Source: Desulfuromonadales bacterium
GTDB lineage: Bacteria > Desulfobacterota > Desulfuromonadia > Desulfuromonadales > BM103
Direction of reading: 5' to 3'
NCBI GenBank assembly: GCA_030145205.1
Contig: JAQYVZ010000003.1
Span: forward strand, 1-64,000
DNA: 64,000 bases
Notes under the pieces: generated by a model
What the model was told of the DNA's origin: nothing
Databases searched by the model: none
The model's input: the letters and a program-made list of their open reading frames with translations, nothing else
In this document: positions 23,526 to 31,073 of the stretch, one piece after another
Position numbering within the stretch: position 1 is the stretch's first letter
Layout: each line of letters begins with the position of its first letter
Made by a program: the position numbers and the translations under genes

Positions 23526-24461
23526 TCAAGCAAGGGCCGTAATCAGCTGAGGCCTCCAGAGCGGAGAAACCACCCGGAAGATACACTCAAGCAGTTCTGT
23601 CAGAAGCGGGTCTTCACGCCGGTGCGGCAGTACAGCGACACAGCGCCCACGGGAATGCACGAAATCCTTGACCCGAACCCCGACCAGACGGCCTGACTCG
23701 AGATAGCTGTTGACGATGGCCGTTGAAACATAAGCAATACCACCACCGTCAAGGACCGAGTTAATCGTGAAATGCAGGTCATCCGAGACCACCATCCCCT
23801 CGAATTCCTCAAAATCAGTACCCCGGTTGACCAGGTTGCGCCGTAGCATCTCCTTGGAACTGCAACCATCGCGTCGAGCGAACAGACGGTATTTCAGTAA
23901 ATCCTGCATATCAGCATAGCCGTCGACCACTTTCAACCCGGACTGGGGCGGCAGCACAAACAGCAATTCGTCATCCGGCAACGGAAAACGCTCAAAACCC
24001 TCGAACGACTGATCAACGCAATGTTCAATGACGGCAAGATCGAAGTCCTCGCTACGTAGCCCTTGCAAACCCTCCTCAGGCTGCAGAAAAACAAATTTCA
24101 GATCATTGAGATCGGAATTGCCGCGAATAAAGTCACTGAGAATTTGCGGCAAGTAAGCCATTCCGAACGTCGGCGTACAGCATAAAGACAAGCGTTTTTC
24201 ATCGGTTACCCGCTTCAAACGATCGAGCAGCTCACGCTCTTTCTCAAGGATTTCCCGAGACTTGGTCAAGACCAGCAATCCCGCTGGCGTCGGTTCCAGA
24301 ATCGCACCGGAGCGATCGACCAATTGATGGCCATACTGCTCTTCGAGGAACTTGACCCGCTGCGACACAGCCGACTGCGTAATGTGCAAAGTCTCTGCCG
24401 CCTTGGAGAAAGACCCCCTCTCGAGCACTTCAACCAGTGTTTTTAAGTAGCGAGTTTCCAT
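23526..24461 (-). CDS. LysR-family transcriptional regulator
   Basis: This 311-residue protein has an N-terminal winged helix-turn-helix (METRYLKTLVEVLERGSFSK, then AAETLHITQSAVSQRVKFLE). A two-lobed substrate-binding domain follows, with CTPTFGMAYLPQIL and the turn VVSDDLHFTINSVLDGGGIAYV. It is divergent from the decahaem cytochrome/porin operon 260 bases away, the usual arrangement for a LysR regulator and its target. The start at 24461 has GGAG five bases upstream; an in-frame ATG at 24509 lacks one. The ligand is unknown. The CysB/CbbR-like branch is suggested by the overall sequence. Confidence 0.9.
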   Translation of the reverse strand: METRYLKTLVEVLERGSFSKAAETLHITQSAVSQRVKFLEEQYGHQLVDRSGAILEPTPAGLLVLTKSREILEKERELLDRLKRVTDEKRLSLCCTPTFGMAYLPQILSDFIRGNSDLNDLKFVFLQPEEGLQGLRSEDFDLAVIEHCVDQSFEGFERFPLPDDELLFVLPPQSGLKVVDGYADMQDLLKYRLFARRDGCSSKEMLRRNLVNRGTDFEEFEGMVVSDDLHFTINSVLDGGGIAYVSTAIVNSYLESGRLVGVRVKDFVHSRGRCVAVLPHRREDPLLTELLECIFRVVSPLWRPQLITALA

Positions 24462-24500
24462 CGCGCTCCATCTATATTTCCATATATTTGGCTGAAAAAT

Positions 24501-24517
24501 TATAACCAAGGCTTATA
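24501..24517. promoter_or_regulatory. Candidate LysR-type operator
   Basis: TATAACCAAGGCTTATA is an interrupted dyad (TATAA and TTATA around seven bases) in the divergent spacer between the LysR gene and the cytochrome operon, close to the regulator's own start. LysR-type proteins often bind such dyads. Support is weak because no second copy is seen. Confidence 0.3.
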
Positions 24518-24721
24518 TCGTCATAAATAACTTTCGTTTTACCCTATCATTATTGCCTATTAGTATACAACCGCTTGGGATAGAAAACCCGATGACTCAT
24601 AGATAGAATTAATAAGCAAATCCGTAGAGAGAGGAGAGGAGGAAAGCACCAGAGCCTCAAGAACCGTTAACACACTGTTTGTTTTTATTTGTCGAGGCAT
24701 TTCGTACTGAAAGGAGAACCC

Positions 24722-25927
24722 ATGTTAAGGAAGGTATCGCTAACCAAAGCACCTTGGTTGGTCAAGCTCCTTCCCCTGGCACTGATCCTGGGCGCATGCG
24801 CCACAGGAGCTATCAGGGAGAAGCAGTTGACTCTGCCAACAATCGAAGGTGCGGAAGCAGTCGGACAGGAAACCTGTCTGGAGTGCCATGAGGACTACGC
24901 GGAGAGTTTCGCCGCCAGCGCTCATGGTCGCATCGCTGATTTCGAACTGATGGGCGCAGCCGGCGGCTGTGAGGCCTGTCACGGTAACGGTGGTCTTCAC
25001 GCTGATGAAGGCGACACCGACAAAATTTTGCAATTTGGTGAGATGCTGCCGGAAGAATCCGCAGCCGTCTGCGCCAAATGTCACTCCGACGGCAGCCTGA
25101 TGGATTGGACACACGGCGAGCACGCGCTGGCTGACGTGTCCTGTACTGACTGTCACTCCGTCCATGGTGGCGGCAAAGCTGCGCTCAAGCAGGACGACCC
25201 CGAGCTTTGCTACTCCTGTCACCAGGAGCAGATGGCTCAGGCCAACTTCCCTTCCCATCACCCGATCAAGGAAGGCAAGATGACCTGCAGCGACTGCCAC
25301 AACCCGCACGGTGAATTGAACACCCACGAGCGCACTAACGACCTGTGCCTCGATTGCCACTCCCGTTATCAGGGTCCGTTCGTGTTCGGCCATGCTCCGG
25401 TCGAGGATGACTGCACCATCTGTCACAATCCTCACGGCTCCGTTGCCAACAACCTGCTGGCCCAGAACGAGCCGTTCCTCTGCCTGCAGTGTCATGAAGG
25501 TCACTTCCACATGCTGCGCAAGGGCTTCGATCCGTATGCAGATGGAGCAAAATTCAACTCTGCTGCCGACCTGACCGAAGGTGAAATGGACGCCCTCCTG
25601 GCGGCTTCGGGCATCTCCGGCGACATCATCGTCAAGGGCACGCACGGAGCTACCGGCTACTTCGACACTGCAAAGGACGCGAAAGACTTCGCAAGCTACC
25701 TCAACACCAACACCGATGGTCACCGTTACTTTGTCAACACTGAATACGATGACCAGTACACGGTGTGGCAGCGCTCCACCAGCGAAGCTAGCGCGACAGC
25801 AGCCAACCCCCACGGGGAGGAAGGCTGGCAGATGTCGTTCGGCACCAAGTGTACGACCTGTCACCAGGTTGTCCATGGCAGTGATCTCCCGTCTCAACCG
25901 CTCGGCGGTGGCGGCCTGACCCGTTAA
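24722..25927 (+). CDS. Decahaem c-type cytochrome lipoprotein (MtrA/DmsE family)
   Basis: This 401-residue exported protein has a hydrophobic signal ending in LGAC, a lipobox, so it should be a lipoprotein. Ten CXXCH haem sites are visible in order: CLECH, CEACH, CAKCH, CTDCH, CYSCH, CSDCH, CLDCH, CTICH, CLQCH, CTTCH. This count and spacing, with NPHG and VHGG after several sites, are those of the MtrA/DmsE/PioA family that conducts electrons through an outer-membrane porin. AAGGAG precedes the ATG. The porin partner follows 17 bases later. Unlike periplasmic MtrA it seems lipidated. No outer-surface cytochrome (MtrC type) is next to it, as in MtoAB/PioAB or DmsEF conduits. Confidence 0.93.
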   Translation: MLRKVSLTKAPWLVKLLPLALILGACATGAIREKQLTLPTIEGAEAVGQETCLECHEDYAESFAASAHGRIADFELMGAAGGCEACHGNGGLHADEGDTDKILQFGEMLPEESAAVCAKCHSDGSLMDWTHGEHALADVSCTDCHSVHGGGKAALKQDDPELCYSCHQEQMAQANFPSHHPIKEGKMTCSDCHNPHGELNTHERTNDLCLDCHSRYQGPFVFGHAPVEDDCTICHNPHGSVANNLLAQNEPFLCLQCHEGHFHMLRKGFDPYADGAKFNSAADLTEGEMDALLAASGISGDIIVKGTHGATGYFDTAKDAKDFASYLNTNTDGHRYFVNTEYDDQYTVWQRSTSEASATAANPHGEEGWQMSFGTKCTTCHQVVHGSDLPSQPLGGGGLTR

Positions 25928-25944
25928 CTTAGGAGGCAATTACA

Positions 25945-28266
25945 ATGAAGCAACGTTATTTTCTAGTTGCAGTATTGTCCATCCTGATCCTGGCGGCGAC
26001 CTCCACGCTGGTGATGGCGGAAGAAGATTCCGCGCATCTCAGTGGTAACTGGGAGGTTGGCGTTACGGGTGTGGACCTTGAGGACAATCCTGCACGTGTC
26101 AACGAATATGGAACCAACCGGACCGACAAGGACGGTGTAAACCTTGCGACCGAAGTGAACCTTGAGTACATCAACAAGGGGTTCATGATGGAACTCGAGA
26201 GTGATATCAACGGTGCTGATGATCAACAGCATGCTCTCGAACTCGATTTCAATCGAGTCTTCAAGTTCGACTTCGAGACCAGCAAGTTCAATCACTGGAA
26301 AGATCAGGACACCCTCGAGCACCTCGGTGCCACGATGCAGGGTGACATCGACGGCGACCAGCCACGTATCTTCACCAACCAGACGTGGGCCAAAGGCGAC
26401 AAGGAACAGTTTGCGTGGGAACAGAGCCAGGACTACTTTGTGACTCGCAAAGAGAGCGAAGCCGGTGCTGAGCTGCAGCTGCCTGCCCTGCCGAACGTGA
26501 CCTTCCACGCTGGCGTCCGCATCGAAGAGCGTGAAGGCATGGAGCAAGCGATTGCCCTGAGCAAGTGCTCGGCCTGCCATGTCGAAGCCAACCCGAAGGT
26601 GATTGACGAGCGCACCGAGGAATTCACCCTCGGCGCCACCGGCAAATTCGGCCTGTTGACGGTTGAATACGAGTACCTGTCGCGTGATTTCGAAGATCGC
26701 GGCGAGCTGCCGACTTACCAATACTGGAACAGCGGCAAGATTCGCTTCGGCAGCACTGACCCTGACCAACTGCTCTACATCAACGAAGAGCTGGAGTACA
26801 ACCAGACTCCCGAGTCTGAAAAAGACAGCCACCTGCTGACGGCCCGTCTCGACCTGCCGAACAACACGGTCCTCTCTGGTAGCTACGTCAACGCCGACAT
26901 CGACAGCGCCAAGGAAGGCGAAGAAGGCACCTACACGTTTGTCGGCAGTGACACGCTCACCAGCGCCTTCGAGTCGTTTGCCTTGAAAGGTGCAACCCGC
27001 ATCGGCGGCCTGCGTCTCTCGATGCACGGTTCGTCCTACGAGATCGACGGCCCGGACTACACCCTGTCCTTCCCGGACCGCGTCGACAATGTTGATTGGG
27101 ACCATGACGGTGTCATGGAAGCCAGCAACAACACCTACGACAACCCGGCACACTACGAGTCGGCGGAGAGCCGCGACGTGACCGAGTTCGGTCTGGATGC
27201 TGTTTACCGCCTCGCTCGTGGCACCACCCTGCGCCTCGGCTATGACTACGAAGATGTCGAGCGTGAGCATGAAGAGCTTGGCGAAACCGAGACCTCAACC
27301 TACAAGCTGTCGTTGCACAGCCGCCTGGCCAAGGGTCTCAATGCCCGCTTCAGCTATACCTATCAGGACATTGACGATCCTTTCGGCGCTGACCATGCTA
27401 CCGGCATCGCCCAGGGTCACGAGGATGCCATCGTGGACGGCACCCTGTCCTACCTGCTGACGAATGACTACAAACTGTCGGCACCTGATTTTGTCAATGT
27501 CGATGACGATCCGCTGGCAGAAGGCAACACTGTTGCAGCTTATTACTGGAACACAGTCTATCCTGCGCGTGGCCTCACTGCCACCGACCAACCGGACGAA
27601 GTTCAGGAGCTTAAAGCCAGCACCACTTGGTCCCCAGCTGCCAACATGTCCGTGACTGCCTACATACGTGCCCGCTTCGAAGAGAACAGCGACGTCAAGT
27701 ACGAAGAGAACACCTACGTGCCTGGCATCACCTTCTGGTATGCACCGAACGGCAAGATGAACCTAGTCATGGCGTACAACTTTAACAAGCAGGAAACCGA
27801 AAACCAGATGTGCGTTGGTTGGTACCATGGCTGAGCGAACACGGTCTCGTCGGTCCAGTTTGGATCGATCTGCAGTGTTGCTGAAACCGAAACCGACGTC
27901 CACACTCTTTCCCTGAGCGCAGATTATCAGGCAACCGAAAAACTACAACTTGAAGCCAGCGTGGTCTACAACAAGGCAGACTACTCCTGGGATTGGGATT
28001 TTGAAGAGCGTCCGAGCCTCACCTGGGGCGGCGCCGACAAGACTAATTTTGACACTTGGGATATTAACGACGACATCGACACCTACTCCGACCTGTCTTA
28101 CGAGGAGTATCAGTTCACCGTCGGCGGTACCTACAACTTCACCCCGACCTGCTACACCACCGCACAGCTGACTTACGATGTGTTTGAGAGTGATGAGCAG
28201 TATGTCTACGGTGACGAAGACGGTAGCGCCTACTACGGCTACCTCGGCTTCGGGTATCGCTTCTGA
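25945..28266 (+). CDS. MtrB/PioB-like outer-membrane porin, frame crossed by one in-frame UGA
   Basis: The reading frame gives 773 residues if the TGA at 27832-27834 (codon 630) is decoded as an amino acid. The protein has a Sec signal peptide (MKQRYFLVAVLSILILAATS, cut near LVMA|E) and long alternating beta strands. It ends YLGFGYRF, the aromatic terminal strand recognised by the BAM machinery. A single haem motif, CSACH, lies at residues 208-212. With normal termination the product would be 629 residues, lacking about six strands and the terminal signal. The frame after the TGA keeps neighbour-like codon use for 144 codons. Alternatives are selenocysteine, a recent nonsense mutation or a base error. 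It lies 17 bases after the decahaem gene, with a terminator at 28306-28335. Confidence 0.85.
27832..27879 (+). other. In-frame UGA with SECIS-like hairpin
   Basis: The UGA codon at 27832-27834 is followed by a stem of nine pairs (27849-27857 with 27861-27869, two of them G-U) capped by the three-base loop GUU (27858-27860). An outer five-pair stem AACAC/GUGUU (27838-27842 with 27875-27879) encloses it. In bacterial selenoprotein genes the signal is a stem just after the UGA, with a small apical loop starting with G, roughly 16-37 bases away; here the loop starts 24 bases after the UGA. The fit is by inspection only. Confidence 0.5.
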
Positions 28267-28305
28267 TCCCAACGTCAATCAAGACTTGCCTCTTTTATTA
28301 ACACT

Positions 28306-28335
28306 TGCCCGGCTGTTTCCAGCCGGGCATTTTTT
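28306..28335 (+). terminator. Intrinsic terminator after the porin gene
   Basis: GCCCGGCTG pairs with CAGCCGGGC around TTTC, followed by ATTTTTTAT. It lies 40 bases after the TAA/TGA-closed porin frame and supports 28266 as the true end of the gene. Confidence 0.9.
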
Positions 28336-28342
28336 ATTTCTT

Positions 28343-28467
28343 AGCGCTGAGATACCCGGACGTTGAGCGTAAAAACCTTAAATCAGAAGCTACTGGCTCT
28401 CCAACGATGGCGGTGGCAGTCTTTCTGTCTAGAAGAGGGGTTCTCAGCGTCCCGGCGCCTCAGCGTT
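28343..28467. repeat. Imperfect long inverted repeat between porin and radical SAM gene
   Basis: Arms at 28343-28369 (AGCGCTGAGATACCCGGACG...) and 28441-28467 match as reverse complements at 19 of 27 positions. Both are made of CGCTGAG-type units with about 14-base periodicity. The element fills most of the space between the terminator and the next gene. Confidence 0.5.
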
Positions 28468-28517
28468 AAATTGATTCTTCCGCTCGCAATTCAATTGTTT
28501 GTTCTCTAAGTGCAGAC

Positions 28518-31073
28518 ATGCTATTTTACTTTGTTATGCAAAGAAATCAACAATCACAATACACACCCCAGATTTCCGACCTGCTCCAGCTCGACAAACC
28601 GGCCCGCTACCTGGGTGGCGAACTGGGCAGCATTCGAAAAGACTGGAATAAAGTCGACATCACCTTCGCCCTGGCCTTTCCAGATGTGTATGAAGTCGGC
28701 ATGAGCCATCTCGGCTCGGCCATCCTCTATCAGACCCTGAATGATGTTGACTGGATTGCGGCGGAACGCAGCTATGCCCCCTGGCCTGATCGGGAGGAGC
28801 AACTGCTCGCCAGCAGCACGCCTCTGACAACTCTGGAATCGGGCCGCTCCCTGGCCGACTTCGACCTGGTCGGGTTTTCCCTGCAGTACGAGCTGAGCTG
28901 CACCAACGTGCTGACCATGCTGACGCTGGCCGGGATCCCATGGCACGCCAGTGAGCGCAGCCTGGACGACCCGCTGATCGTGGTAGGCGGCCCCTGCGCC
29001 TTCAACCCTGAACCATTGGCCGACTTCATTGACTGTGCCCTGATCGGTGATGCGGAAGAAGCCGTGATTGAGCTTTGTGCCGCCGTGCGGGACAGCAAGG
29101 CCGCCGGAGAAGACCGTCAGGAACTGTTGCTGCGCCTGGCCAGGATCGAGGGGATCTACGTTCCGGCCCATTTTGCAGTGGACTACCAGAACGACGGCCG
29201 CATTGCCGGCATCACAGCGCTCAACCCCGAGCGCCCGCAAGTGCGACGCCGCGTGCTGGCCGACCTCGACACAGCACCCTTTCCGACCCGCCCGATCGTT
29301 CCCTTCCTGACGACCATCCACGACCGCGTCGCCGTTGAAGTTGCCCGCGGCTGCACCCGCGGCTGCCGTTTCTGCCAGGCCGGCTACATCTACCGGCCGG
29401 TGCGTGAACGTCAACCGGAAACCATTAGCAACCTGATCGCTGAAAGCCTGCGCCATTCCGGCTATGACGAAGTCTCTCTGTTGTCGCTCTCGACCGGCGA
29501 CTACACGTACATCGAATCGCTGGTTCAACACCTGATGAGCTGCTACGCCGCACAGCGGGTAGCCGTATCACTGCCCAGCCTGCGAGTCGGTTCCCTGACT
29601 CAGGAGCTGATGGAAGAGATCCGCAAGGTTCGCAAAACCGGTTTCACCCTGGCCCCGGAAGCAGGCAGCGAACGGCTGCGCCAGGTGATTAATAAAGGTA
29701 TCACCGAGCAAGACTTGATTGACGGCGCCCATCAGGCCTTTTCACTGGGTTGGCGCATCATCAAGCTCTACTTCATGATCGGCCTGCCGACGGAAACCGA
29801 CGAGGACCTGGACGCCCTGGTCGACCTGTCGGCTCGTGTCAAACGCTCTGGAAAAGGGACTGAGGGCGGCGGCGCTGTCAATGTCTCGGCGTCAACCTTT
29901 GTCCCCAAGGCACATACCCCGTTCCAGTGGGAAGAGCAGCTCAGCATCGAGGAAACCGTACGTCGCCAGAACAAACTGCGCGACGCCCTGACCCGGAAGA
30001 AACTCAAGCTGAAGTGGCATGACGCCCGCACCTCCTTCATGGAGGGCGTACTGGCCCGCGGCGATCGCCGCCTCGGCGCGGTTCTCGCAGAAGCGGTCAA
30101 GCAAGGCTGCCGTTTCGACGGCTGGCGGGAACATTTCAACTGGGACTTATGGATGGCCGCCTTTGACAGCGTTGGCCTGGACCCACAATGGTACTTGCGC
30201 CAACGCCGGCCCAGCGAAATCTTCCCCTGGGAACATATCGATGCCGGGGTTTCGAAAGATTTCCTGCTACGGGAACGACAAGCGGCTCTCCTGCAGAAAG
30301 AGACCCCCGATTGCCGCAACGGCTCCTGTTCAGCCTGCGGTCTGTGCGACTTTGACACAGTCCGCCCACGCAAGGCACAGATTCCTCTCGAGGCAAAGTC
30401 TCCGGTCGAAGAAGTTGAACCGGAGCAGAGTAAGGCGCCTCAGGAGTTCTGTAAAATCCGCTTGACGCTACGCAAAAGCGGCCGCACCACAGCCATCAGT
30501 CATCTCGAATTCATGACTTTGCTGCATCGTGCGGTCCAGAGGGCCAAACTGCCCATCCGGTTTTCCGCAGGGTTTCACCCAGCGCCGCGCATCAGCTTCG
30601 GTGACGCCCTGCCGATCGGTGTCGCCAGCGAAGTCGAGCTGGTCGACCTGGAGTTGACGTCGCCACAGTCCCCCGCCGTGCTCCTGGATAAACTCAATCT
30701 GGAGATGCCTGAAGACATCCGGATATTGTCCGCCGAAGACTGGCCGCTGAAAGGCCCCTCGCCCGGCGCGAGTCTGGCGACTGCAACCTACCGGGTTCCT
30801 CTGCCGGACAACCGGCCCGCGGACCTCGAACAACGGCTGACAGAATTTCTGGCAGCAGAGAAAGTAACCACGACACGGCTGAAGAAAAACCGGCCAACTG
30901 AAGTCGACCTGCGGCCATGGGTTGAGACTCTCGCCTGCGATGACACGGCTCTGCTGCTGACGATGCGCTCGGGCAGCCCGATTGTCCTCTCAAGCTATCT
31001 GCTGGACATCGACCCGGAATCAGTTCGTAGCCTGGAAGTCTGCAAAACACATGTGACATTGAAAGAGTTATAG
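28518..31073 (+). CDS. B12-binding-type radical SAM protein fused to a DUF2344 domain
   Basis: This 851-residue protein has an N-terminal cobalamin-binding-like region (about 60-230). The radical SAM core follows, with the cluster motif CTRGCRFC at about 279-286 in VEVARGCTRGCRFCQAGYIYRP. The C-terminal part (about 640-851) is the radical-SAM-associated DUF2344 domain, FCKIRLTLRKSGRTTAISHL onward. A Cys cluster, CRNGSCSACGLC, lies between them. From family knowledge such fusions occur next to rng and L21/L27 genes in deltaproteobacteria and cyanobacteria; the modified substrate, perhaps RNA or a ribosomal component, is unknown. The start is uncertain: ATG at 28518 or 28536, neither with a strong ribosome site. 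Confidence 0.9.
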   Translation: MLFYFVMQRNQQSQYTPQISDLLQLDKPARYLGGELGSIRKDWNKVDITFALAFPDVYEVGMSHLGSAILYQTLNDVDWIAAERSYAPWPDREEQLLASSTPLTTLESGRSLADFDLVGFSLQYELSCTNVLTMLTLAGIPWHASERSLDDPLIVVGGPCAFNPEPLADFIDCALIGDAEEAVIELCAAVRDSKAAGEDRQELLLRLARIEGIYVPAHFAVDYQNDGRIAGITALNPERPQVRRRVLADLDTAPFPTRPIVPFLTTIHDRVAVEVARGCTRGCRFCQAGYIYRPVRERQPETISNLIAESLRHSGYDEVSLLSLSTGDYTYIESLVQHLMSCYAAQRVAVSLPSLRVGSLTQELMEEIRKVRKTGFTLAPEAGSERLRQVINKGITEQDLIDGAHQAFSLGWRIIKLYFMIGLPTETDEDLDALVDLSARVKRSGKGTEGGGAVNVSASTFVPKAHTPFQWEEQLSIEETVRRQNKLRDALTRKKLKLKWHDARTSFMEGVLARGDRRLGAVLAEAVKQGCRFDGWREHFNWDLWMAAFDSVGLDPQWYLRQRRPSEIFPWEHIDAGVSKDFLLRERQAALLQKETPDCRNGSCSACGLCDFDTVRPRKAQIPLEAKSPVEEVEPEQSKAPQEFCKIRLTLRKSGRTTAISHLEFMTLLHRAVQRAKLPIRFSAGFHPAPRISFGDALPIGVASEVELVDLELTSPQSPAVLLDKLNLEMPEDIRILSAEDWPLKGPSPGASLATATYRVPLPDNRPADLEQRLTEFLAAEKVTTTRLKKNRPTEVDLRPWVETLACDDTALLLTMRSGSPIVLSSYLLDIDPESVRSLEVCKTHVTLKEL

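Follow-up and report, generated by a model that had tools for sequence, protein, structure and literature searches.

The window, a stretch of 64,000 nucleotides of a Desulfuromonadales contig, contains a porin gene with a single in-frame UGA at codon 630, which is almost certainly read as selenocysteine (Sec). The data are best explained, with high confidence, by a full-length MtrB-type outer-membrane porin of the GSU2204 family whose codon UGA630 is translated as Sec by SelB and tRNA-Sec under the direction of a hairpin. The porin is a well-supported member of an already catalogued family of predicted selenoproteins and not a discovery. The present analysis adds the phylum-wide conservation of the site, the covariation within the SECIS hairpin and a single Cys clade among the Sec rows. 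The features of the region are the following:

23526–24509, minus strand: divergent regulator gene of the multiheme cytochrome-associated LysR family (NF041036, 404.4 bits against a cut-off of 210)
24689–25927, plus strand: gene of a decaheme c-type cytochrome of the GSU2203 family, DmsE/MtrA-like, the presumed conduit partner (NF041028, 453.7 bits, cut-off 325)
25931–25936, plus strand: ribosome-binding site AGGAGG of the porin gene, read from the sequence
25945–28266, plus strand: gene of the MtrB/PioB-like outer-membrane porin, a predicted GSU2204 family selenoprotein of 773 residues with Sec at 630, assigned by profile and homologue comparison
26566–26580, plus strand: CXXCH motif of the porin (C208-S-A-C211-H212), a putative single haem site, conserved in relatives
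27811–27813, plus strand: Cys623, seven residues before Sec, present in 50/50 order members and 27/39 Sec forms of the phylum sample
27832–27834, plus strand: UGA, predicted Sec630, from translation and homologue columns
27849–27869, plus strand: predicted SECIS hairpin, stems 27849–27857 and 27861–27869 with loop GUU at 27858–27860, from folding and covariation
27871–27873, plus strand: Cys643, 13 residues after Sec, present in 50/50 order members and 1/39 Sec forms of the phylum sample
28307–28337, plus strand: intrinsic-terminator-like hairpin with a T run at the end of the two-gene unit, read by eye

Translation of the frame 25945–28266 confirmed the initial annotation in that the TGA at 27832–27834 (residue 630) is its sole internal stop. 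The normal stop of the gene is also a TGA (28264–28266) and follows the C-terminal residues YLGFGYRF, as had been described. The 143 codons 3' of the UGA are open and conserved, and the coding character is retained past the UGA as had been claimed, with a GC3 of 0.71 upstream and 0.69 downstream, the other two forward frames 3' of the UGA holding 2 and 11 stops. The terminator-like stem reported 3' of the porin was also seen, its distance from the porin stop being 41 bases by eye and not 40. Termination at the UGA would cost about five strands, the last strand of the barrel among them, so that readthrough would be needed for a complete barrel; the five strands, against about six in the initial annotation, were counted in a low-confidence model.

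In the NCBIfam comparison the porin scored 589 bits (cut-off 350) with NF041027, "GSU2204 family CXXCH-containing (seleno)protein". The match included residues 13–629 of the porin and positions 2–580 of the 580 in the profile, with the UGA directly after. The porin also scored 58.1 bits with the Pfam family PF11854 (MtrB_PioB; gathering score 23), and with the MtrB/PioB subfamily TIGR03509 it stayed below the cut-off (51.5 against 240.05 bits). The AlphaFold2 model, constructed from an alignment of seven rows, was poor, with a mean pLDDT of 48 and about 26 around the Sec. Its best fold match in the PDB was 6r2q_B, chain B of the Mtr complex, which is presumably MtrB (E 1.1e-10, TM-scores only 0.36 and 0.40), and the next matches were TonB-dependent receptors. 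The sequence profile found nothing significant in the PDB (best E 0.068). The earlier description of the protein as an MtrB-like porin was thus upheld by PF11854 and the fold match, but not at the level of the TIGR03509 subfamily. In the same model of mean pLDDT 48, 26 strands of at least nine residues were counted, and the barrel may therefore have 26 strands, the number reported for MtrB in PMC7198977.

Only 17 bases separate the end of the decaheme cytochrome frame from the porin frame. The cytochrome scored 234.1 bits with TIGR03508 (cut-off 192.2) and includes ten CXXCH motifs, the tenth far from the other nine. The sequence ILGAC near its N-terminus is lipobox-like, and the protein may be a lipoprotein. 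Of the 50 order loci, 45 have a homologue of the cytochrome; at the remaining five (L032, L033, L070, L071 and L093) the contig breaks off on the cytochrome side. Upstream of the cytochrome gene lies the LysR regulator, and 3' of the porin the terminator-like hairpin is followed by a radical SAM gene. No gene for an MtrC/OmcB-like surface multihaem cytochrome was found in the porin unit. Outside the window, another contig of the same genome (G000, C280:103663–104973, L095) carries a second MtrB-like porin with a frame of 727 residues and no internal stop, directly following a stretch 41% identical to the decaheme cytochrome of the window.

No feature was found that would set the porin apart from the NF041027 family, with which it shares a score over the cut-off, the CXXCH motif, the UGA right after the matched stretch, the MtrB/PioB-type barrel, the GSU2203 family decaheme neighbour and the NF041036 regulator. 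With PioB and with the MtrB of Shewanella MtrCAB (6R2Q) it has in common PF11854, the best PDB fold match, the decaheme MtrA/DmsE-like neighbour and, in the weak model, the 26 long strands reported for MtrB. It differs from MtrB and PioB in falling below the TIGR03509 cut-off and in having a CXXCH and a Sec of its own, and the unit differs from MtrCAB in having no MtrC-like surface cytochrome gene downstream. The porin and its decaheme partner probably form an electron conduit of the MtrAB/PioAB kind.

When 98 genomes were searched with the porin protein translated through the UGA, 50 genomes gave a match, and among the 30 best match rows 28 included exactly one TGA. Within the order, UGA was present at the site in 50 of the 51 orthologous copies examined that reach residue 630. 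The count leaves out duplicates of the same places (L050–L055, L056–L063) and the matches in G008 and G112, which stop short of residue 630, and some of the 50 UGA copies are partial or otherwise damaged (L036, L065, L072, L093). The 51st copy (G132, L092) is broken, with five TGA and three TAA codons within the match; in it the UGA is replaced by two sense codons.

The phylum sample consisted of 395 genomes, of which 51 had a match to the porin. Excluding the gene of the window itself, 48 rows spanned residue 630 (counted by hand) and all were fetched and aligned; L107 falls short of the site. The column at residue 630 had UGA in 39 of the 48 rows and Cys in two, and the remaining seven were porins without the residue. 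The UGA forms were found down to about 25% identity, which indicates that the Sec feature is old. An alignment of homologues at residue 630 had been proposed in the initial annotation as a check, and it gave UGA or Cys in related sequences.

All six full-length paralogues of the order had Cys in the Sec column, encoded by TGT or TGC, and each of them occurs alongside a Sec form in its genome. In a tree of 75 rows constructed with a quick method, the seven Cys rows formed a single group with a support of 100. The nearest neighbour of the Cys group was a Sec row, and two changes accounted for all the labels. With the root drawn at the midpoint, the topology suggests that the direction of change was from Sec to Cys. 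L119 was omitted from the tree because its sequence was shortened by trimming at a stray TGA. This sequence, with Cys in the Sec column, has the stray in-frame TGA at codon 574, 90 codons before the column, probably as an error or a sign of a decaying gene.

Profile searches of the genome detected selA, selB and selD together on contig C248, each above its cut-off. The best match for tRNA-Sec (selC) scored 76.8 bits against a cut-off of 47, and a second one just passed with 48.2 bits. All four genes for which the initial annotation had suggested a search were thus present. The selD gene (G000 contig C248:12346–13269, L048), adjoining selA and selB, itself holds an in-frame TGA, and SelD is probably a selenoprotein too; it is listed among the known kinds of selenoproteins in PMC13188914. 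Within the order, selA was over the cut-off in 48 of the 50 UGA genomes and in 66 of the 86 others (Fisher p 0.003). The two UGA genomes in which selA was not detected were 81 and 84% complete. Five genomes that are at least 99% complete (G010, G042, G055, G077 and G089) had no selA, and none of them belongs to the 50 UGA genomes.

The hairpin described in the initial annotation, with nine pairs, loop GUU and the placement of a bacterial SECIS element, was present, the spacing from the UGA to the loop being 23 nucleotides when counted by hand. The bacterial SECIS model given in PMC13188914 includes a loop of 3–9 nucleotides with a G in the first two loop positions, a stem of 4–16 bp, a spacing of 16–37 nucleotides and a minimum free energy of at most -7.5 kcal/mol. 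The porin hairpin agrees with this model in its loop of three nucleotides (GUU), nine base pairs, spacing of 23 nucleotides and energy of -10.5 kcal/mol. By itself the fold of 60 nucleotides was modest (z -1.90), with 7 of 200 shuffles folding at least as well. Among 5000 synonymous recodings that preserve the protein, none was as low as the hairpin of 21 nucleotides (-10.5 kcal/mol, the mean of the recodings being -2.2 kcal/mol), and 72 were as low as the fold of 54 nucleotides. No Rfam element reached its gathering score at 24000–30000.

The pairing within the stem was also followed across the Sec forms. Six of the 50 sequences were dropped from the pair counts and described by hand, four (L068, L070, L071 and L072) being one codon shorter and two (L021 and L075) having an insert of ten codons. 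In all 44 remaining sequences the wobble base of Gly codon +10 formed a Watson-Crick pair with the middle base of codon +7, the pairs being 29 C-G, 10 G-C and 5 U-A. Since this wobble base is silent, its pairing cannot be explained by coding, and it is the strongest evidence for the element. Among 40 distinct rows, none of 20,000 permutations was as good, in a control that ignores relatedness. The covariation score of the whole helix was 0.249 against 0.118 when shuffled (0/500), and it reached at most 0.089 when the partner strand was slid. Two of the five pair measures did not exceed the shuffles, namely pairs with both sides changed (2 against 3.0) and further pair types (6 against 8.8). 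The outermost pair was kept in 12 and the next pair in 31 of the 40 rows, so the conserved core of the hairpin consists of six to seven pairs; RNAalifold predicted six.

The insert of L021 and L075 begins inside the hairpin and alters the local protein. L075 nevertheless forms nine pairs around a loop GUC, and in L021 ACUCA could, by eye, pair with UGAGU around GUC, its minimum-energy fold being different. The nucleotides 13–40 past the codon folded at -13.7 to -7.4 kcal/mol in the Sec forms (n = 50) and at -9.1 to -0.5 kcal/mol in the Cys forms (n = 8), so that the two ranges overlap slightly, L091 having the value -9.1. The hairpin was thus conserved across the homologues, a condition set in the initial annotation, and it covaried; on these sequence comparisons the predicted element at 27849–27869 is identified as a SECIS. 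It would direct SelB and tRNA-Sec to decode UGA630 as Sec.

The initial annotation had named a nonsense mutation or a base error as the plain alternative to Sec, and a single draft assembly of 317 contigs alone would leave room for an error confined to one genome. This alternative is refuted by the conservation of the UGA, found in 50 of 51 order copies and 39 stretches of the phylum sample, together with the Cys of the paralogues in the same column and the open, conserved codons beyond; its probability is negligible. Hardly more credible is a genome-wide reassignment of UGA to a standard amino acid, or its suppression without a SECIS. The frame would be open whatever the residue at the UGA, but the porin gene itself terminates in TGA, on which ground reassignment was rejected; also tRNA-Sec and selB are present, the relatives have Cys and not Trp, and the hairpin covaries. 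The Sec reading is strongly supported by the conserved UGA/Cys column, the sel genes and the covarying hairpin, and Sec would on this basis be inserted in the cell.

The surroundings of the Sec bear on its role. Both Cys residues of the CXXCH were present in all 43 order members covering the motif and in all six Cys paralogues, and exactly one CXXCH was found in each of the 35 phylum Sec segments covering that part. Five shorter porins (L141–L145, frames of 612–669 residues) have one CXXCH, and the whole Sec loop is absent from them. As the motif is kept in these relatives, the haem motif is independent of Sec. Loop sides were assigned in the weak model by numbering the strands from the C-terminal end; if the tight turns are periplasmic and the long loops outside, both the Sec630 loop and the CXXCH loop would be extracellular.

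The initial annotation had placed the two Cys residues flanking the Sec eight residues before and 14 after it, the actual distances being 7 (Cys623) and 13 (Cys643), and had suggested them as its partners. A selenenylsulfide of Sec630 with one of them, shaping or gating the extracellular loop, agrees with the order, where all 50 Sec forms have both Cys and all six Cys paralogues have Ala and Tyr at the respective positions. It fits the phylum sample less well: of the 39 Sec forms there, 27 have the upstream and one the downstream Cys, and 12 have neither, so neither Cys can be a universal partner. An obligate bond with either was therefore rejected, and a fixed Sec–Cys bridge is rather unlikely. 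Somewhat likelier, if still tentative, is a role of Sec as a redox or metal-binding residue at the outer face, where, by a guess from the model, it would lie near the haem of the porin or serve as its ligand. The UGA could also act as a selenium-gated switch, so that without selenium a truncated porin would stay unassembled and the conduit would form only with selenium. Sec decoding competes with termination, and a stop at the UGA would leave the porin without its terminal strand. Another conduit cluster, with the porin ExtI and the predicted selenoprotein ExtKL, has been linked to selenite reduction (PMC5877670). A switch would still be compatible with a catalytic Sec, and a pure switch leaves unexplained why the copies without UGA keep Cys at the site; this reading is improbable. 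Of the readings of Sec as a redox or ligand residue, the boldest is that Sec630 and the CXXCH haem of the porin make up a terminal redox site at the cell surface within the barrel itself, in place of a separate MtrC-type cytochrome. This is unlikely, its probability being lowered by the CXXCH of the five relatives without the Sec loop.

The initial annotation had regarded a Sec in a conduit porin as new, which did not hold, as the GSU2204 family is already included in NCBIfam (NF041027) and in a 2026 review, where Table 1 gives it as a predicted selenoprotein of the MtrB/PioB type with one Sec and high confidence (PMC13188914). With the terms searched, nothing on the family was found in the main text of PMC2398784, which PMC13188914 cites for it as reference 61, or in PMC5029168, so that its first report was not located, and no study of the function of the family or its Sec was found in the open-licence literature. 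In Geobacter sulfurreducens, GSU2203, named omcK in PMC13194489, and GSU2204 were upregulated together on hematite (2.68 and 2.36 fold, respectively) and magnetite (1.65 and 1.53 fold), according to Table 2 of PMC4070692. The ExtI/ExtKL cluster of the same species likewise combines a cytochrome and a porin of the outer membrane and includes a predicted selenoprotein, but PMC5877670 places the predicted Sec in the cytochrome ExtKL and not in the porin ExtI. ExtI was rejected as the closest family on this ground and because NF041027 fits.

A barrel that presumably exports electrons is an uncommon location for selenium, and the Sec is kept there in relatives with as little as about 25% identity. 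Where a gene caller ends the frame at the UGA, the porin will be listed as truncated, which may mislead surveys of conduits. GSU2204 makes the Sec in the porin directly testable in Geobacter sulfurreducens. If the surface site formed by Sec630 and the CXXCH were real, it would pass electrons straight to an extracellular acceptor, for example a metal or metalloid.
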